In this document: piece after piece, positions 15,604-55,730 of the stretch
How positions within the stretch are numbered: the stretch's first letter is position 1
Layout: the number at the start of each line of letters is the position of its first letter
Source of the DNA: Janthinobacterium agaricidamnosum
Lineage (GTDB): Bacteria > Pseudomonadota > Gammaproteobacteria > Burkholderiales > Burkholderiaceae_D
Assembly (NCBI RefSeq): GCF_003667705.1
Contig: NZ_CP033019.1
Coordinates: forward strand, 5,952,001 to 6,016,000
Direction: 5' to 3'
DNA length: 64,000 nt
Notes under the pieces: generated by a model
Told to the model about the DNA's origin: nothing
The model's input: the letters and a program-made list of their open reading frames with translations, nothing else
The model's database searches: none
Made by a program: the position numbers and the translations under genes

Positions 15604-16255
15604 ATCCGGCTGGAAGAGAAGTTATCCCCGCTTATCCCAGCCTTTCTGCCCGCTTATGCACAAGTTTATCCACAGTATGAACATCACGGATTTCCACGGC
15701 TGCCGCCATCCAGCCGCGCATGAGGCCTTTCAATAAATAGACATCAGTTCCCGGACAAAACTTATCCCGGCTTATCCAGCGTTTGCCCACGCTTTAATCA
15801 CAGGCTTTTGCACAGCTTTACCCACAGTCTGGCTTTACAAATTTGTCTTAAATATCCTTGCAATACAATGACTTATAAGTTATTCATGACTTATTATTCA
15901 ATTACGCACAAGCTTATCCACAATCCAGAAAAGCAAAAATCTGAGGCTACTTTCATAGCCTGCGAGATTAGCTTTCCTCCTCAGGCGCCAAACTTCGCCA
16001 GATAACTTATCCCGTCTTTTCCACAGGTTTTTCACCATTTATACGCAGCTTATACCGGGCTTATCCATCGCTTGTCCGCCTGCTTGTTCACATGTTTATC
16101 CACACACCAAAATACAGCAGAAATACTTGATGGAAATAAGGCCCCGACTTATCCCAGGTTACCAGCCAGCTTTCCACAGGATTATCCACAGGCGAAAAAA
16201 AACGCCGCCAACCCGGACAGGCTGGCGGCGTCATGCCGGGTGAGGGCGATGTCGC
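15604..16255. other. DnaA-box cluster in a gene-free region
   Basis: This 652 bp stretch between the Lrp gene and glmU has no credible gene. It contains five perfect DnaA boxes (TTATNCACA), all in the same orientation: 15654-15662, 15666-15674, 15914-15922, 16096-16104 and 16182-16190. One-mismatch boxes lie at 15818-15826, 15902-15910 and 16017-16025, with many more partial CTTATCC repeats. The density is far above chance for a 9-mer. It could be a DnaA titration site, a DnaA-regulated promoter region, or part of a bipartite origin with the modules near 30 kb. Confidence 0.75.
16195..16230 (-). terminator. glmU terminator
   Basis: On the minus strand an 8-bp stem (CGCCGCCA / TGGCGGCG, 12-nt loop) is followed by eight consecutive T residues, 25 bp after the glmU stop. 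This is a typical intrinsic terminator. Confidence 0.85.
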
Positions 16256-24921: not shown

Positions 24922-27900
24922 ATGCACCCTGCAGGCCCCTCGGCTTTTACCCCGATTCCTTTTGCTGCGTTCCAGGCAGAAATCCTGCCCGAAGCGACAC
25001 CCCAGCGCGCCGCCATCACTGCCGCCTATAGGCGCGATGAGGTTTCCGCGGTGCAGTGGCTGTTGCAACAAGTGCGCCCCAGCAGTACCGAAACGATCGC
25101 CGAAGGACAAGCGCTGGCGCATCGTCTGGTCTCGAACGTGCGCCAAAAACGCACACGCGCGTCCGGTGTCGATGCACTGATGCACGAGTTCTCGCTGTCG
25201 TCGGAAGAGGGTGTTGCATTGATGTGTCTGGCTGAAGCGCTGTTGCGTATACCCGACAGTCAAACGGCCGACCGTTTGATCGCCGACAAAATCAGCAAGG
25301 GCGACTGGAAGAAGCACCTGGGCGAATCGCCGTCGCTGTTCGTCAATGCGGCCACCTGGGGCTTGCTGATTACGGGCAAACTGGTCAGTACCAGCAGCGA
25401 ATCGGGCCTCGGTTCTGCCATGACCAAGCTCATCGCCAAAGGCGGCGAACCGCTGATCCGCAAGGGCGTCGACCTGGCCATGCGCATGCTGGGCAACCAG
25501 TTCGTCACGGGGCAAACCATCGAGGAAGCGTTGAAGAACAGCCGCGAGAATGAAACGCGCGGCTACCGCTACTCGTACGACATGCTGGGCGAGGCAGCCC
25601 TGACGCAAGCCGACGCGGCCAACTACTACGCCTCGTACGAAACGGCGATCCACGCGATCGGCAAGGCGTCGAACGGGCGCGGCATCCGCAACGGCCCCGG
25701 CATTTCCGTGAAACTGTCGGCCCTGCACGCGCGCTACAGCCGCGCCCAGCGCGCCCGCGTCATGGAAGAATTGCTGCCGAAGGTCAAAGCGCTGCTGTTG
25801 CTGGCAAAACAGTACAACATCGGCTTCAACATCGATGCGGAAGAGACGGACCGCCTGGAACTGTCGCTCGACCTGATGGAAGCACTGGCCTTCGATGCGG
25901 ACCTGGCCGGCTTCGACGGCATCGGCTACGTGGTGCAGGCGTATCAGAAGCGCTGCCCGTTCGCCATCGATTTCCTGATCGACCTGGCGCACCGCAGCGG
26001 CCGCAAGTTCATGGTGCGCCTGGTCAAGGGCGCGTACTGGGATGCGGAAGTCAAGCGCGCGCAAGTCGACGGCCAGGAAGGCTATCCCGTCTACACGCGC
26101 AAGGTCTACACGGACGTCTCTTACCTCGTGTGTGCGCAAAAACTGCTGGCTGCCAGCAGCCTGATCTACCCGCAGTTTGCCACGCACAACGCGCAAACCC
26201 TGTCGACCATTTATACCTGGGCAAAACGCGACGGTATTACCGACTATGAATTCCAGTGCCTGCACGGCATGGGCGAAACCCTGTACGACCAGGTCGTCGG
26301 CCCCGACAACCTGGACAAGCCGTGCCGCATCTACGCCCCCGTCGGCTCGCATGAAACCCTGCTGGCCTACCTGGTGCGCCGCCTGCTGGAAAACGGCGCC
26401 AACTCATCGTTCGTCAACCAGATCGTCGACGAAAGCGTGGCCATCGATAGTCTGATCCGCGATCCGCTGGAACAGGCACGCCTGCAGGGCGGCTTGCCGC
26501 ACCCGTCGATTCCGCTGCCGCTGGACATGTTTGGCAGCGAGCGCAGGAACTCGGCCGGCCTGGACCTGTCGAATGAAGACACCTTGCGCACCCTGGCCAC
26601 CGGCCTGGCGCAGCAGCAGACATGGCAGGCGGCGCCGCTGATCGATGGCGCCGTCAGCCTGAATACGCCGATGCAAGTCATCCACAATCCGGCCCAGCAC
26701 GACGATGTCGTGGGCAAGGTCATGGAAGCCGGTCCGGCCGACGTGGAAACGGCGCTGGCCAGCGCCAGCGCGTATGCCATGGATTGGCAAACGACGGAAC
26801 CGTCGGTCCGCGCGCAAGCGTTGCTGCGCGCCGCCGACCTGTTCGAGGAACACCATATCGAGCTGATGGCCCTGGCCGTGCGCGAAGCGGGCAAGTCGCT
26901 GCCGAACGCGGTCGCGGAAATCCGCGAAGCCGTCGACTTCCTGCGCTACTACGCGGCGCAGGTGGAACATGCGCCGAACACCCTGGCGCTCGGTCCCGTC
27001 ACCTGCATCAGCCCGTGGAACTTCCCGCTGGCCATCTTTACGGGCCAACTGGCCGCCGCTCTGGCAGCGGGCAACGTAGTGCTGGCCAAGCCGGCCGAGC
27101 AAACGCCGCTGATCGCCCACCGCGCCGTGCAATTGCTGCATGCGGCCGGCGTGCCGCGCGGTGCGCTGCAATTCTTGCCCGGCAGTGGAGAAGTGGTCGG
27201 TGCCGGCCTGTGCAATGACGCGCGCGTGAAAGGCGTGATTTTCACGGGCTCGACGGAAGTGGCGCAATTGATCAACCGCAACCTGGCCGCGCGCGCCGTG
27301 GCCGAAGGCATCGACATTCCCCTGATCGCCGAAACGGGCGGCCAGAACGCGCTGATCGTCGATTCGTCCGCCTTGCCGGAACAGGTAGTGCAGGACGTGA
27401 TGTCGTCCGCTTTTGACAGCGCCGGCCAGCGCTGCTCGGCCTTGCGCGTGCTGTTCCTGCAAACGGAAATCGCCGACAAGACCATCCATATGCTGAAAGG
27501 TGCGATGCAGGAATTGCGCGTTGGCAATCCTGACCGCCTGGCGACCGATATCGGTCCCGTCATCGATGCGGAAGCGCAAGGTAACTTGCTGGCGCATATC
27601 AACAAGATGAAAACCATGGCCATCGACCATTATTCGCTCGATTTGCCGACCGTCAAAGGCACGTTTGTTGCCCCGACCGTGCTGGAAATTAAGTCGCTGG
27701 CGCAATTGACGCAGGAAGTCTTCGGCCCCGTGCTGCACGTGATCCGCTACAAGCGGGCCGAACTGCCGCAACTGGTGCAATCGATCAACGACAGCGGTTA
27801 TGGCTTGACCCTGGGCATTCATACGCGCATCGACGAAACCATCGCTTTCATCACCCAGCGCGCGCACGTGGGCAATATTTATGTCAACCGTAACATCGTT

Positions 27901-28575
27901 GGCGCCGTCGTCGGCGTGCAACCGTTCGGCGGCGAAGGCAAATCGGGCACCGGTCCGAAGGCGGGCGGTCCCCTGTACCTGAAACGCCTGCAGCGCAATG
28001 CGCCGGCCGGCGCGCAGCACCAGCGCCAGGCGCCGCCCGCGCTCGACGCGCTGACCGTGTGGGCGAAGATGCATGGCCACGACAAGGTGCAGCAACTGGC
28101 GCAGGAATACGCACGCACCACCTTGCTGGGCAGCACCACCGTCTTGCCAGGCCCGACGGGCGAGCGCAATACCCTGAGCTTTGCGGCACGGGGCACGATT
28201 CTGTGCGCGGCGGCCACGTCCGGCACCTTGATGAACCAGCTGGCGGCCGTCCTGGCCACCGGCAACCAGGCCCTGGTGCTGGCGCAAGCGCCGGAGCTGA
28301 TCCCGGGTGATTTGCCGGCCGCGCTGAAGGACCGCATCCAGATCGTCAGCAGCCTCGAGTCGGTCAAGCAGGATTTCCAGATCGCCATGATCGAGCCTAG
28401 CCTCGATGGCCAGCTCAAACCGCTGCTGGCGGCACGGGAAGGGGCCCTGGTGGCCACCATCGCCACCACGCAGGACGGTGCCATCCCCCTGTGGCGCCTG
28501 GTCGCTGAGCGGGCGCTGTGCGTGAATACGACGGCGGCCGGTGGTAACGCGAGTCTAATGATGTTAAGTGTCTAA
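24922..28575 (+). CDS. putA: Bifunctional proline dehydrogenase / P5C dehydrogenase PutA
   Basis: A 1217-residue PutA oxidising proline to glutamate. An N-terminal arm is followed by a proline dehydrogenase barrel (about 180-470; FNIDAEETDRLELSLDLMEA, RLVKGAYWDAEVKRAQ) and an aldehyde dehydrogenase domain (about 570-1010; TCISPWNFPLAIF, ETGGQNALIVDS, catalytic Cys838 in AGQRCSAL). A C-terminal ALDH-like extension resembles the long-form PutA class. The roughly 80-residue ribbon-helix-helix DNA-binding domain of E. coli PutA is absent, so this is a non-regulatory form; the divergent Lrp gene probably controls it. Start at 24922 with AAAGAG upstream. Confidence 0.95.
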   Translation: MHPAGPSAFTPIPFAAFQAEILPEATPQRAAITAAYRRDEVSAVQWLLQQVRPSSTETIAEGQALAHRLVSNVRQKRTRASGVDALMHEFSLSSEEGVALMCLAEALLRIPDSQTADRLIADKISKGDWKKHLGESPSLFVNAATWGLLITGKLVSTSSESGLGSAMTKLIAKGGEPLIRKGVDLAMRMLGNQFVTGQTIEEALKNSRENETRGYRYSYDMLGEAALTQADAANYYASYETAIHAIGKASNGRGIRNGPGISVKLSALHARYSRAQRARVMEELLPKVKALLLLAKQYNIGFNIDAEETDRLELSLDLMEALAFDADLAGFDGIGYVVQAYQKRCPFAIDFLIDLAHRSGRKFMVRLVKGAYWDAEVKRAQVDGQEGYPVYTRKVYTDVSYLVCAQKLLAASSLIYPQFATHNAQTLSTIYTWAKRDGITDYEFQCLHGMGETLYDQVVGPDNLDKPCRIYAPVGSHETLLAYLVRRLLENGANSSFVNQIVDESVAIDSLIRDPLEQARLQGGLPHPSIPLPLDMFGSERRNSAGLDLSNEDTLRTLATGLAQQQTWQAAPLIDGAVSLNTPMQVIHNPAQHDDVVGKVMEAGPADVETALASASAYAMDWQTTEPSVRAQALLRAADLFEEHHIELMALAVREAGKSLPNAVAEIREAVDFLRYYAAQVEHAPNTLALGPVTCISPWNFPLAIFTGQLAAALAAGNVVLAKPAEQTPLIAHRAVQLLHAAGVPRGALQFLPGSGEVVGAGLCNDARVKGVIFTGSTEVAQLINRNLAARAVAEGIDIPLIAETGGQNALIVDSSALPEQVVQDVMSSAFDSAGQRCSALRVLFLQTEIADKTIHMLKGAMQELRVGNPDRLATDIGPVIDAEAQGNLLAHINKMKTMAIDHYSLDLPTVKGTFVAPTVLEIKSLAQLTQEVFGPVLHVIRYKRAELPQLVQSINDSGYGLTLGIHTRIDETIAFITQRAHVGNIYVNRNIVGAVVGVQPFGGEGKSGTGPKAGGPLYLKRLQRNAPAGAQHQRQAPPALDALTVWAKMHGHDKVQQLAQEYARTTLLGSTTVLPGPTGERNTLSFAARGTILCAAATSGTLMNQLAAVLATGNQALVLAQAPELIPGDLPAALKDRIQIVSSLESVKQDFQIAMIEPSLDGQLKPLLAAREGALVATIATTQDGAIPLWRLVAERALCVNTTAAGGNASLMMLSV

Positions 28576-28650: not shown

Positions 28651-29427
28651 TCAGCCAGCCAGGCGCTGGCATAGCTGCTGAATCACCGCAAACGCATACG
28701 GCGAAGCGACGGATTGCACGAAACGCATGAAGTCGACGGCCGCCTCCTCATTCGCGTTGTCGGAAATGGTGCGCATGACCGTAAACGGCACGCCGAGTTC
28801 AAAACACACTTGCGCCACGGCGGCGCCTTCCATTTCGACGGCCAGCAAGTCAGGGATATCCGCTTTCAGCTGGTTGATATGCGCGGCGCTGCCGATGAAC
28901 TGGTCGCCGCTGGCGATCAGGCCGCGGTGTACTTTGGCGTGCTGCAAGCCAAATGCCGCGATATCGGCCGCCTTGAGCACGCTGGAAACATCGTCACGCA
29001 GGAAATCTTCCGCGGCAGCTGCCAGTTGCGTGCTCAGTTCCAGGTCCGTGGCGAAGCGCTGCAGTCCCGTCAGCGGCACTTCGAAGCGGGGAAACAAAGG
29101 TCGGGCGTCCATATCATGCTGCAGCAGCGATTCGGCCACCACGATGTCGCCCACTTTCACGTGTTTATCCCCACTGCCGGCCACGCCGGTGAAGACGATG
29201 TGGGTAACTCCGTACTTTTCCACAAGGATAGAAGCTGTCATGGCAGCGGCAACCTTGCCCAGACGCGACAGGACGCACACAGCGTCGATATTCCACAGGT
29301 TCCCCAGGGTGTAGTCACGCATGCCGTGCGAACGCCTCTGGGGGCCTTGCATGGCTTCTACCAGCCCCTGCTGTTCTTCGTGCAAGGCACTGATGATGCC
29401 TAAACGCATTTTTTTGTGTGAATTCAT
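28651..29427 (-). CDS. mtnN: 5-methylthioadenosine / S-adenosylhomocysteine nucleosidase
   Basis: A 258-residue nucleosidase of the MTAN/PNP family that hydrolyses MTA and SAH. It begins RLGIISALHEEQQGLVEAM and carries the ribose-binding VEMEGAAVAQ and the catalytic-Asp region RTISDNANEEA. Its substrates arise from polyamine synthesis (see speD and the aminopropyltransferase in this window) and SAM-dependent methylation. The start is either ATG 29427 or ATG 29409, neither with a clear ribosome-binding site. It is transcribed away from the origin-like region. Confidence 0.9.
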   Translation of the reverse strand: MNSHKKMRLGIISALHEEQQGLVEAMQGPQRRSHGMRDYTLGNLWNIDAVCVLSRLGKVAAAMTASILVEKYGVTHIVFTGVAGSGDKHVKVGDIVVAESLLQHDMDARPLFPRFEVPLTGLQRFATDLELSTQLAAAAEDFLRDDVSSVLKAADIAAFGLQHAKVHRGLIASGDQFIGSAAHINQLKADIPDLLAVEMEGAAVAQVCFELGVPFTVMRTISDNANEEAAVDFMRFVQSVASPYAFAVIQQLCQRLAG

Positions 29428-29445
29428 GCTGTTTTTACAGGTTTT

Positions 29446-29742
29446 TGAGATTGCAAAACGGTTTACAGGGTGAAAACAGCCGTTTCGGTGACTTTTCCAC
29501 CGTGCGCGTTTGTCTCTGTGTTTTAAATAAAGATGTATACATAAAAATAGTAGTGATAGTAAACGGCCATTTTTTTGTGGATAAGTCGGTATACCATCGA
29601 AAAATCATCAACTTAGCGCACAAAAAAGTAGGCGCACAAGCATTGTATCCAGCGAGGACTTGTTTGGGATAAAAATTGGCTTGTGGACAAAGATCGACTT
29701 TTCCCACATCTCATCCTGTGGATATGCAGGCACTTATCCACA
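29446..29742. repeat. Origin-like module 1
   Basis: Triplet tract TAGTAGTGATAGTAA at 29548-29562; perfect DnaA box (minus orientation) 29576-29584; one-mismatch boxes 29682-29690 and 29717-29725; perfect plus-orientation box 29734-29742. A GCAAAACGGTTT element near 29452 starts the module and is echoed before modules 2 and 3. Confidence 0.7.
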
Positions 29743-29883
29743 CCGGCAAGCAAAAATCGCGTTTTTTCTTGCTGCAGTGACATGTTTGACGGGATTTGTG
29801 TGTACTGACTCCTGTCTGGCAATTGAAGCTGAGCGATCATGAACGCTGTTCTTTCACGAACATCGGCTTCCAGGTGATTCCTG

Positions 29884-30205
29884 GAAGACGGTTTGGCAGT
29901 GGGTAGCACTGTTGCCGTTGGCTTTTTTTTTGACGGTTTTTGCATGCTTTTTGGAAATATCCCCGGACTTCCGCTTTTTTTGTCGTTTTACAATAGAGCT
30001 ATATATAAAAATAGTAGTAATAGTAAACGCGTTTTTTTCTGTGGATAAGTCACTTTTTTTCAACAGGATCAACCGTTTACGCGCAAAATAAAGCGTGCAT
30101 AATCGCTGTATCCCGCGAGGAGCAAAATTGTATAAAATGCGGGCCTGCGCAAAAGTTCGTGTTTACTCACAAGTCATCCTGTGGATATCAAGTGACTTAT
30201 CCACA
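29884..30205. repeat. Origin-like module 2
   Basis: Triplet tract TAGTAGTAATAGTAA at 30012-30026, preceded by TATATATAAAAA; perfect DnaA box 30040-30048 (minus orientation); TGTGGATAT 30180-30188; perfect TTATCCACA 30197-30205. Starts with ACGGTTTGGCAGTG near 29889. Confidence 0.7.
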
Positions 30206-30283
30206 ATCGTCTCAAATACCCCCTCTTTTCGACATCGCACCGTCTCTCGGCCGAATACCTGGCCAGGACGGTTGACGTTTCCA

Positions 30284-30683
30284 TTTTGCAAAACGGTTTG
30301 GCAGTGCAGTGCGCGTGATGCCGGCCGTGCCGGTTTTCGTCGCTCAGTTGTTGGCGCGATTTTTTTTTGTCAGTCAAAGCAGCTCGCCGTTTTTTTTTTT
30401 GAAGACAGGTTTGTGAACCTTCCCGAAGGAAAAGGGCAGACAAAGCGCGCGTTGTCCGGTTTACCTTAACAAGATCGTATACAAGAATAGTAATAGTAGT
30501 TAACGGCGACATCTTCTGTGGATAAGTCCTGATTTATCCTTGTAAACAATCGCTTGGCGTACGGATAAACGCTGAGTAAGGGTTGTATCTGCCGGGGATG
30601 GTTTTGGGATAAAAAAAAGGCGTCCAAAAAAATTTTCGTTTACTCACATATCGTACCTGTGGATATCCATACGGTTATCCACA
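30284..30683. repeat. Origin-like module 3
   Basis: Triplet tract TAGTAATAGTAG at 30488-30499; perfect DnaA box 30517-30525 (minus orientation); TGTGGATAT 30658-30666; perfect TTATCCACA 30675-30683. It starts with GCAAAACGGTTTGGCAGTG near 30288 and ends about 200 bp before the GMC oxidoreductase gene. Confidence 0.7.
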
Positions 30684-30885
30684 GCTTGGCGGCCTTGTTT
30701 TTGAGCTTATCGTGACGCTCGCCCATATCGCTGGCCACGATTAATGTCGCCCTGGCCCGGCACTGGTGGTAATCTCAAGGCGGCTCAGCAGCCATGCATG
30801 CATGAAGAAAGACAGACTCTGGTAGCGGAACGCGGTGGGGAGACACGCCGCGCGACAGCTTGATGGCATACCGAAAGGAGCTTCA

Positions 30886-32511
30886 TTGGAATCGGCAGGC
30901 GAATACGACTACATCATCGTGGGCGGCGGCACGGCAGGTTGCGTGCTGGCCAACCGGCTCACGCGCGACAAGGATGCCAACGTTTTGCTCGTGGAAGCGG
31001 GCGGCAAGGACGATTACGTGTGGATCCACATCCCCGTCGGCTATCTGCATTGCATCGGCAATCCCCGCACGGACTGGCTGTATTCCACGCAGGCGGACGC
31101 GGGACTGGGCGGGCGCAGCCTGATCTATCCGCGCGGCAAAGTCCTGGGCGGCAGCTCGTCCATCAACGGCATGATCTACATGCGGGGCCAGGCCGGCGAT
31201 TACGATCACTGGGCCGACCTGACGGACGACGCCTCCTGGCGCTGGGACAAGGTCTTGCCGCTATTTAAACAAAGCGAGGATTATTACGGCGGCGCCTCGG
31301 AAAACCATGGCGTCGGTGGCGAGTGGCGCGTGGAAAAACAGCGCCTGTCGTGGGATATTTTGAATGCGTTCCGCGACGCGGCGCAGCAGGTGGGCATCCC
31401 GAAAACCAGCGATTTCAATGGCGGCGACAATAGCGGCAGCGCATATTTCGACGTCAATCAACGCCGCGGCATCCGCTGGAATACCTCGAAAGCATTCTTG
31501 AAACCGGCCGCGCGCCGCCCGAACCTGACCATCATGACGGGCTGCCACGTGGAACGTCTATTGATTGAAGCTTCGGAGTCGGGGCTCCGTTGCACGGGCA
31601 TCGTGTTCACGGGCGGCGGCACGCAGTGGCAGGCGACGGCCAAACGGGAAACCTTGCTGACGGCGGGTGCCATCGGTTCGCCCCAATTGCTGCAATTGTC
31701 CGGCATCGGCCCGGCCGCCTTGCTGCGCGAACACGGCATCACGCCCGTGCTGGACTCGCCTGGCGTGGGCGGCAATTTGCAAGACCATCTGCAGCTGCGC
31801 ATGGTGTACAAGGTGCAGGGCGTCAAGACCTTGAATGTGATGGCCAGCAATATCGTCGGAAAAATGCAGATCGGCTTGCAATATGCGTTGTTCCAGAGCG
31901 GGCCCATGTCGATGGCGCCATCGCAGCTGGGCGCGTTCGCCAAGTCCGATCCGCGGCAAGCCACGCCGAACCTGCAATACCACGTGCAACCCTTGTCCTT
32001 GGACAAATTCGGCGAACCCTTGCACGCGTTTCCCGCGTTTACGGCCAGCGTCTGTAATCTGCGCCCGACTTCGCGCGGCCATGTGCACATCGCCAGCGCC
32101 GACAGCTATGCGGCGCCGAAGATCGTGCCCAATTACCTGAGTACCGAGCAGGACCGCGCCGTGGCGGCCGACGCCTTGCGCCTGACGCGGGCCATCGCCG
32201 CCGCGCCGGCCCTGAAAAAATTCGCTCCCGAAGAATACAAGCCGGGCGTGCAATTCCAGAGCCAGGAGGAGTTGGCGCAGGCGGCCAGCCAGATCGGCAC
32301 CACCATCTTCCACCCGGTGGGCACCTGCCGCATGGGTCTGGCCAGCGAGGCCTCTAGCGTGGTCGACAGCTCCTTGCGCGTGATCGGCGTAGATGGTTTA
32401 CGTGTCGTCGATGCCTCGATCATGCCGTACATTACTTCTGGTAACACGAACTCGCCCACCGTGATGATCGCGGAAAAAGCGGCGCAAATGATACACGCGG
32501 CCTGGAAATAG
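30886..32511 (+). CDS. GMC-family FAD-dependent oxidoreductase
   Basis: A 541-residue glucose-methanol-choline oxidoreductase resembling choline or alcohol dehydrogenases. FAD-binding YDYIIVGGGTAGCVLANRL (about residues 6-24), the GMC signature GKVLGGSSSINGMIYMRG (about 80-97) and C-terminal FHPVGTCRMG with SGNTNSPTVMIAEKAA are intact. The start is taken as TTG 30886 because a strong AAAGGAG lies 5 bp upstream; the in-frame ATG 51 bp earlier has no such site. Substrate unknown. It is the first of a long run of forward genes right of the origin-like region. Confidence 0.88.
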   Translation: MESAGEYDYIIVGGGTAGCVLANRLTRDKDANVLLVEAGGKDDYVWIHIPVGYLHCIGNPRTDWLYSTQADAGLGGRSLIYPRGKVLGGSSSINGMIYMRGQAGDYDHWADLTDDASWRWDKVLPLFKQSEDYYGGASENHGVGGEWRVEKQRLSWDILNAFRDAAQQVGIPKTSDFNGGDNSGSAYFDVNQRRGIRWNTSKAFLKPAARRPNLTIMTGCHVERLLIEASESGLRCTGIVFTGGGTQWQATAKRETLLTAGAIGSPQLLQLSGIGPAALLREHGITPVLDSPGVGGNLQDHLQLRMVYKVQGVKTLNVMASNIVGKMQIGLQYALFQSGPMSMAPSQLGAFAKSDPRQATPNLQYHVQPLSLDKFGEPLHAFPAFTASVCNLRPTSRGHVHIASADSYAAPKIVPNYLSTEQDRAVAADALRLTRAIAAAPALKKFAPEEYKPGVQFQSQEELAQAASQIGTTIFHPVGTCRMGLASEASSVVDSSLRVIGVDGLRVVDASIMPYITSGNTNSPTVMIAEKAAQMIHAAWK

Positions 32512-54665: not shown

Positions 54666-55730
54666 TTAGCGGCGCTTGTCCTTCCCCCTTTCCAGCCCCG
54701 CCTTCAAGATCGTCTTCCACTTGGCGCGCGCGGCAATGCGCTCGAGCGGCGTCTCCTCGCTGCGGCGCGCGTCGCGCAGCAGCTTGTGATAGTTGCGCAG
54801 GCGGTCCCCGTCGACGGCGCCACGCACCTGGCAACCGGGTTCGCTGGCATGCTGGCAATCGCGGAACTGGCACGTTGCGGCAAGCGCCGCGATGTCGTCG
54901 AACGTGGCCGCCAGGCTCTGCGCATCGGCGTCGGCGCGCCAGCTGCGCAAGCCCGGCGTGTCGATGATGCAGGCGCCATCCGCACACAGGTGCAGCGAGC
55001 GGGCCGTTGTCGTGTGCCGGCCGCGGCCGTCGCCGTGGCGCACGCCGTTGGTCGCTTGATCCGCCGCGCACAAGGTATTGGTCAGGCTGGACTTTCCCGC
55101 GCCCGATGAGCCGAGCAGTACCAGGGTCTGGCCGGCACCCAGCCAGGGTTCCAGGATGGCCACGTCATACGCGTGGCGCGTATCGACGGCAAACAGCGGC
55201 ACGTGCTGCGGCAGGCGCTGCCTGAGCTGGGCCAGTTTTCCCGGCACGTCGTCGGCCACGTCGGCCTTGCTCAGCACCACCACGGGGCTGACCTGGGCCG
55301 CCAGCACGATGGTCAGGTAACGCTCCAGGCGGCGCGGATTAAAATCCTCATCGAGTCCCATCACCAGCAGGGCCGTGTCGACATTGCTGGCCAGCACCTG
55401 GCGCCGGCCGTCATTGCCGCGCCGCGCGATCTGCGTGACTGGGGATAAGTGCGCCGTTATCCACAGCGTGCCCTGACCATCGGGTTCGGCGGCGATCCAG
55501 TCGCCGACAGCAAGGATGGTGTCGTGTTCCAGCAGCGCGTGCAGCAGGCGTGGCAGGATCTGCGCCGGCTGTTCCAGGCTGCCGTCGTGCACGCCGATGC
55601 TGTCGCGGTGCACGGCGCTCACGCGCATCAGCTGCGCGGTGGTGGAAGATACGTTGAGTTGGGTGGCCGCGCCGGCGATAGCCTGCTGCAGCCCGATAAG
55701 GCGTAGTTGCGCAAAATCGAATGCGATCAT
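54666..55730 (-). CDS. rsgA: Ribosome small-subunit-dependent GTPase A (long form)
   Basis: A 354-residue circularly permuted GTPase that checks late 30S assembly. N-terminal OB domain (about 30-110); G4-like VLSKADV; G1 GSSGAGKSSLTNTL; G3 DTPGLRSW; C-terminal zinc finger CQFRDCQHASEPGC. Longer than the usual 300 residues, which suggests the paralogous form often present beside a canonical rsgA elsewhere. Its 276 bp upstream region is unusually structured (separate entries). Confidence 0.92.
   Translation of the reverse strand: MIAFDFAQLRLIGLQQAIAGAATQLNVSSTTAQLMRVSAVHRDSIGVHDGSLEQPAQILPRLLHALLEHDTILAVGDWIAAEPDGQGTLWITAHLSPVTQIARRGNDGRRQVLASNVDTALLVMGLDEDFNPRRLERYLTIVLAAQVSPVVVLSKADVADDVPGKLAQLRQRLPQHVPLFAVDTRHAYDVAILEPWLGAGQTLVLLGSSGAGKSSLTNTLCAADQATNGVRHGDGRGRHTTTARSLHLCADGACIIDTPGLRSWRADADAQSLAATFDDIAALAATCQFRDCQHASEPGCQVRGAVDGDRLRNYHKLLRDARRSEETPLERIAARAKWKTILKAGLERGKDKRR

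Follow-up and report, generated by a model that had tools for sequence, protein, structure and literature searches.

A conserved, tandemly repeated E. coli-type unit at the very probable chromosomal origin of Janthinobacterium agaricidamnosum

A real, conserved and tandemly repeated unit, recognised from its sequence, occupies the very probable oriC of J. agaricidamnosum, where three copies lie within a 1.4-kb intergenic stretch between mtnN on the minus strand and a GMC oxidoreductase gene on the plus strand. Textbooks give a bacterial chromosome a single oriC and, within it, a single unwinding element. The reading favoured here, which we consider probable, is that the locus is an oriC of three complete E. 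coli-type modules in direct tandem, each able to open alone. The copies lie in a window of 64,000 nucleotides (the whole stretch of DNA analysed, from whose first letter the coordinates below are counted), which is part of a complete, single-contig chromosome of 6.36 Mb, rated 100% complete, from a genus that NCBI places in the Oxalobacteraceae of the Burkholderiales.

Structure of the repeated unit

From left to right, each unit is composed of an AT-rich DUE, a TAG/TAA tract, the DnaA box R1, an IHF-like site and the distal boxes TGTGGATAT and TTATCCACA. The features of the region are as follows:

24922..28575, plus strand: putA, proline dehydrogenase / glutamate semialdehyde dehydrogenase, beyond mtnN
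28651..29427, minus strand: flanking gene mtnN, MTA/SAH nucleosidase
29428..30834, no strand: intergenic region, very probably oriC, with three modules in tandem; GC 45% (window 61%)
29531..29742, plus strand: module 1, putative DUE to distal box pair
29531..29575, plus strand: AT-rich stretch of module 1, 27% GC
29548..29562, plus strand: DnaA-trio-like tract of module 1, TAG TAG TGA TAG TAA, interrupted by TGA; gap to R1 13 nt
29576..29584, plus strand: R1 box of module 1, TGTGGATAA
29603..29615, plus strand: IHF-like site of module 1, 8 of 9 specified bases, +27 from R1
29717..29742, plus strand: distal box pair of module 1, TGTGGATAT / TTATCCACA, starts 29717 and 29734
29995..30205, plus strand: module 2, putative DUE to distal box pair
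30012..30026, plus strand: DnaA-trio tract of module 2, TAG TAG TAA TAG TAA, uninterrupted, 13 nt from R1
30040..30048, plus strand: R1 box of module 2, TGTGGATAA
30067..30079, plus strand: IHF-like site of module 2, 8 of 9, +27 from R1
30180..30205, plus strand: distal box pair of module 2, TGTGGATAT / TTATCCACA, starts 30180 and 30197
30472..30683, plus strand: module 3, putative DUE to distal box pair
30488..30499, plus strand: DnaA-trio tract of module 3, TAG TAA TAG TAG, last TAG 17 nt from R1
30517..30525, plus strand: R1 box of module 3, TGTGGATAA
30544..30556, plus strand: IHF-like site of module 3, 8 of 9, +27 from R1
30658..30683, plus strand: distal box pair of module 3, TGTGGATAT / TTATCCACA, starts 30658 and 30675
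30835..32511, plus strand: flanking GMC oxidoreductase gene

The 45 bp before R1 have 27, 24 and 36% GC in modules 1, 2 and 3, against 61% for the window. In each module TGTGGATAT begins 140-141 bp after R1, TTATCCACA starts 17 bp from the start of TGTGGATAT, and the distal pair ends at about +166. A preliminary description of this DNA had located R1 and both distal boxes in all three modules, and its coordinates were right when the box positions were recomputed. The gap of 13-14 bp that it gave between tract and R1 holds for modules 1 and 2 (13 nt) and fails for module 3, where it is 17 nt and becomes 14 only if an extra TTA is counted; the TAG/TAA triplet tract that it saw three times is indeed present in each module, though broken by TGA in the first.

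The flanking genes recur in relatives: the NCBIfam family of mtnN also adjoins the modules in G106, and putA does so in G033. An RNA or tRNA feature was looked for in the window and rejected as an identity, none being found there.

The pair pattern TGTGGATAWN{4,12}TTATCCACA has three matches in the 6,357,735-bp genome, all at the modules, and the reversed box-pair pattern, taken as a control, has none in the whole genome. A scan of the window for tract, R1 and pair together finds three on the plus strand and none on the other; the plus-strand scan came up empty on all 100 order-1 Markov versions of the window and on all 2000 simulated intergenic stretches. Chance clustering was rejected on the empty simulations and the empty reversed control. 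The genome contains 28 exact copies of TTATCCACA, six of them at the modules, and 11 of the reversed pattern; the cluster of DnaA boxes expected of an oriC is thus found at the modules.

The placing of the IHF-like site and the distal box is shared with related genomes. From 97 candidate modules a tract filter dropped eight, and the remaining 89, from 41 genomes, were scored for the IHF consensus WATCAANNNNTTR at offsets of -60 to +149 from R1. At exactly +27 from the R1 start, 72 of the 89 carry at least 8 of the 9 specified bases and the average is 8.0 of 9, every other offset averaging at most about 4.8-4.9. The oriC of E. coli K-12 likewise has a 7 of 9 match at +27, the only offset between +10 and +59 with at least 7. 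Of the 89 modules, 77 have an exact distal TTATCCACA between +156 and +160. On these features, each module is predicted to be a full E. coli-type origin unit, and of the readings offered in the preliminary description a duplicated oriC is accordingly the one best supported.

Evidence for the position of the origin

Cumulative GC skew, sampled in 60 stretches of 20 kb taken every 106 kb, has one minimum, in the stretch 5,936,001-5,956,000, whose end runs 4 kb into the window; the skew peaks at around 2.5-2.8 Mb. A contiguous 424-kb profile places the minimum at window position 28,489, about 1 kb from module 1. A dif-like site at 2,839,810, with two mismatches to a dif core sequence and the only one in the genome within three mismatches of it, lies nearly opposite the modules; reckoned from this site, the replichores measure 50.6/49.4% for the modules and 56/44% for dnaA. 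The single dnaA match of the genome falls within the arm of negative skew, about 353 kb away from the modules. The preliminary description had staked its proposal on whether the skew minimum would map elsewhere, for example at dnaA; the minimum falls at the module region and not at dnaA. The module locus is, on this evidence, very probably oriC.

It is very improbable that the modules form a DnaA-binding regulatory array and that replication starts at dnaA or at a cluster of boxes at window 15.6-16.2 kb. Some observations do point that way: there is one perfect box upstream of dnaA, the cluster has four, and a two-segment skew fit breaks equally well at window 5-6 kb and 28-29 kb (residuals 336,516 and 337,304). 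Gene orientation to the left of the modules is also not as expected, since the adjoining 150 kb hold 58 long ORFs on the plus (lagging) strand and 47 on the minus strand; the expected bias is seen 150-200 kb to the left (7 plus, 17 minus) and in the 150 kb to the right (65 plus, 44 minus, favouring the leading strand). The second break and the orientation just to the left also weigh against the favoured reading, to which the genes on that side lend no support. Against such an origin, neither dnaA nor the cluster has a match to a DUE-R1-IHF sequence model that has three in the genome, dnaA lies well within the negative arm and would leave unequal replichores, and in G106 the lowest cumulative skew (3,528,001, from 20 sampled stretches) is also next to the modules (3.636 Mb), dnaA being at 4.0 Mb. 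An origin at dnaA was rejected here on skew, replichore arithmetic and model search together, and one at the cluster for want of a model match.

The distance between dnaA and module was followed in 32 genomes, counting across contig ends where a genome is nearly a single contig. The two are on separate contigs in G025 and 3.79 Mb apart on one of the four contigs of G100; in the remaining 30 the largest distance is about 720 kb (G001), with 363 kb in G048 and G106, 19 kb in G033 and about 7 kb in three g26 genomes (G026, G129 and G142). Separation of dnaA from the modules is common, not universal.

Other loci rich in DnaA boxes are present in these genomes. The window cluster (15622-16190) has eleven TTATCC motifs on one strand, along with its four perfect boxes, and is found upstream of the glmU end and beyond glmS; an array like it occupies 349302-349863 in G048. 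At window 55440-55465, inside an ORF at 54666-55730, the pair TGGGGATAA / TTATCCACA, with one mismatch, resembles the distal pair. Elsewhere in the genome, at C1:1139162-1140093 (L273), a unit of one IHF-like site (7 or 9 of 9) and one DnaA box occurs seven times with a period of 136-170 bp, the IHF-like site starting 41-42 bp before the box. Their pattern CACAATCTTRTCCACA has matches in 28 of 31 Janthinobacterium genomes, with six copies together in 23, and in this genome, G048 and G123 such an array is separated from the modules by 1.44-1.52 Mb. This locus looks like a datA- or DARS2-like locus of DnaA control.

Conservation and history of the copies

Conservation was compared with three relatives, namely G048, G123 and the most diverged, G072. 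Module identity is 92-99% against G048 and 94-97% against G123, the two linkers standing at 80-83% and 86-89% and the neighbouring coding DNA at 94% and 92-96%, respectively. Against G072, modules 1, 2 and 3 retain 85, 83 and 81% and the neighbouring coding DNA 84 and 80%, while both linkers and the tail fall to 49%. All four genomes have the full set of nine intact boxes. Since the modules are kept where the linkers fall so far, all three look separately selected. Copies can decay, as in G070, where the R1 of the third copy reads TGTGGACAA.

The trio tracts differ among the copies. All three R1 boxes are perfect, where the BUS rules (PMC8287927) allow up to two mismatches. The strict BUS trio rule, as given in the available text of the same source, asks for at least three contiguous NAN trios at no more than 16 nt from the box. 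Module 2 passes, with seven NAN trios at spacing 13. Module 1 fails, having at most two contiguous trios at spacings of 0-16 where TGA interrupts, as does module 3, with at most one within 16 nt and a tract that ends at 17. Fewer than three contiguous NAN trios are found in 38 of the 89 modules at spacings of 8-20, and the count is therefore not a clean test. The first module of an array tends to have an interrupted tract (the GATAGTAAAC type, at window 29548-29562 and in related genera) and later modules often end in TTAAC, a possible specialisation by position.

These differences bear on a second alternative, that unwinding is the work of a single module, most likely module 2, and the others are old DnaA- and IHF-binding clusters with a regulatory or titrating role, likened to the second box cluster that helps one DUE in bipartite origins. 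Only in module 2 does a tract without interruption come within 16 nt of R1, and its passing the strict BUS rule by itself counts against the favoured reading and is what this alternative predicts; extra box clusters do serve one DUE in Bacillus subtilis and Helicobacter pylori, according to the available text of a published account (PMC8235120). We nevertheless think it unlikely, because modules 1 and 3 equal module 2 in the conservation of their DUE, tract and R1 (93, 85 and 85% against G072 for modules 1, 2 and 3), and sites of pure titration would presumably need no AT-rich tract at a fixed distance from R1.

The history of the copies was traced with a tree of 48 modules from nine genera and an alignment of 40 modules from five. 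Janthinobacterium modules 1, 2 and 3 fall into separate groups, and module 1 is joined by G144's first module (g40; support 99/99). First and later modules of g4 and g11 group by position (support 89/94 and 94/90), the second module of G063 also falling in the first of these groups, and the three g18 modules pair by position. Copies group within the genome in G001, G012 and G033, where a separate or later duplication is possible. Because modules otherwise group by position and not by genome, the duplication is, as read from the tree, old among the closer genera; a recent tandem duplication was rejected within g1, g4, g11, g18 and much of g40.

Distribution in the family and beyond

The sequence model comprises 90 positions and was built from 78 module cores (78 of the 89 modules entered, near-duplicates being left out); its calibration was shortened, so its E-values are rough. 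It has exactly three matches in this genome, at E-values of 3e-19 to 7e-17, the next best being 0.81. Across 294 sampled genomes of the GTDB family, each at least 95% complete and scored at E <= 1e-4, 277 match; the model had been trained on modules from the family, and 180 of the matching genomes belong to five genera (g1, g18, g26, g32 and g40). Three matches are found in 81, two in 174 and one in 22; the 17 genomes with none include 12 of 1.7-2.6 Mb. Multiplicity is therefore not essential. The GTDB family appears to be wider than Oxalobacteraceae (44 genera), and genomes that match more than once are seen in 21 of the 34 genera sampled.

Within Janthinobacterium itself, 36 of 37 genomes have three matches and the exception, in 160 contigs, has two. 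The preliminary description had suggested looking for the three-copy layout in relatives; three matches are nearly constant in the genus, and two are the commonest count family-wide. Its word "unusual" is apt against the textbook single DUE and does not carry over to the family, where two or three matches (255 of 294) are the rule.

How close together the matches lie was examined in the 41 genomes whose loci were read, since the family count gives positions for part of its matches. These 41 were chosen for pattern matches, so that their split of 4, 26 and 11 genomes with one, two and three modules is biased and the 294-genome count is the fairer. They contain 48 neighbouring pairs of modules: 43 are direct at 350-900 bp, two are direct at 2263 and 3570 bp, and three are inverted at 1.1-2.9 kb (G127, G115 and G128; loci L234, L241 and L235). 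Inverted modules surround a gene of the Pfam family of mtnN (PNP_UDP_1) in G127 and aldehyde dehydrogenase genes in G128, and in g40 (L222 7821-11036; L223 8967-10928) the genes between modules encode GGDEF-EAL in G144 and GGDEF in G040. Spacing that varies and genes that can intervene favour self-contained units.

The same geometry weighs on a third alternative, in which the modules cooperate, either because neighbouring DnaA-IHF complexes touch or because two DUEs open at once and receive one helicase each. The Janthinobacterium modules are suited to this in lying all on one strand, 464 and 477 bp apart, and the inverted pairs of G115, G128 and G127 would be a natural layout for one helicase per module. 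Yet direct neighbours are anywhere from 350 to 3570 bp apart in the 41 genomes and may have genes between them, so no fixed joint geometry is kept, and we regard cooperation as decidedly improbable.

Matches outside the family are scarcer and weaker, and a few of them form close pairs. A class-wide search of 369 genomes, insensitive to diverged origins, returned matches at E <= 0.01 in 77 of the 368 genomes other than this one, 69 matching once and eight more than once; close same-strand pairs are seen in G368 (439 bp apart), G366 (641) and G397 (290), and G203 has two matches on opposite strands, 153 bp apart. In a sample of 60 genomes of the order, three of them in the family, 13 of the 57 outside it match at E <= 0.001, including G716, with two matches 245 bp apart on one strand, and G739 and G742, whose two matches are 136 kb and 58 kb apart.

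Proposed operation of the array

If the locus is an oriC of three modules able to open alone, ATP-DnaA would bind R1 and the distal box pair in each, and IHF would bend the DNA at its site 27 bp after the R1 start, joining R1 to the distal pair. From R1 a DnaA filament would grow along the TAG/TAA tract; the adjoining AT-rich DNA would melt, and the helicase would be loaded. Any module could do so independently; the first to open would start the round, and its forks would sweep the others, all within about 1 kb. We propose that an array working in this way would give redundancy and set the threshold of initiation.

Extended to the family, this becomes a tentative scenario, somewhat less likely than not: most members would start their chromosome at an array of two or three complete origins. 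The duplication would be older than the split of the closer genera, selection would have kept the copies distinct, and each could fire alone, so that the cell would choose among neighbouring start sites in every round; in some genera the copies would be inverted or separated by genes. A repeated and separately conserved unit makes it testable what a single origin module suffices for, how the cell keeps competent origins that lie side by side from firing together in one round, and how the dose of DnaA and IHF sets timing.

Comparison with known systems

The oriC of E. coli shares the order of the modules described here (DUE, R1, IHF site, distal inverted TTATCCACA) and, with modules 1 and 2, a last TAG that ends 13 nt from R1. 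It differs in being one unit and not three, and in its distal inverted box at +180, whereas the exact TTATCCACA of modules 1, 2 and 3 stands at +157/158 and is paired with TGTGGATAT. DnaA boxes, IHF bending, trios and DUE opening are all known from work on E. coli and BUS, as the available texts present it (PMC8287927, PMC10380432), and a study of Thermotoga maritima oriC reports three TAG repeats as essential for unwinding (PMC10316083). The BUS as set out in the accessible text, a DnaA box followed by a spacer and 3'-GAT-5' (TAG) trios, resembles the present units, with a spacer of 13 in modules 1 and 2, and is unlike modules 1 and 3 in its strict rules (PMC8287927). The screening in that survey, by the same text, leaves almost every genome with one candidate, and multiplicity would therefore not show there; an array of this kind would escape any prediction method that retains a single candidate origin per genome.

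Bipartite origins, such as those of B. subtilis and H. pylori, also have more than one DnaA-box cluster at the origin, but in the available description two unlike clusters flank dnaA and serve one DUE (PMC8235120). That arrangement is not what is found at the modules, where the full unit is repeated, a DUE-like tract is present in each copy and dnaA is about 353 kb away.

No description of repeated complete origin modules in this group was found in the open-licence literature, searched by titles and the beginnings of abstracts, with subscription papers mostly outside the search. The nearest published cases, to judge from the available parts of the papers, are Cupriavidus metallidurans (PMC2864759) and Burkholderia cenocepacia (PMC4948915). 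In C. metallidurans CHR1 the GC-skew transition lies about 90 kb from dnaA, directly after 213 nt with three perfect DnaA boxes, roughly the size of one module; unlike here, the text available describes no repeated unit, tract or IHF site (PMC2864759). The array may help to explain why origins in the family are hard to place, since they often lie tens to hundreds of kilobases from dnaA, and their spread over half a kilobase to several kilobases may add to the difficulty. The origin region oric1 of B. cenocepacia resembles the present locus in its DnaA boxes, IHF site and AT-rich block, elements that its authors, in the accessible text, considered too dispersed to place the origin (PMC4948915); by analogy with the array described here, a reading in terms of several modules could explain that dispersal.
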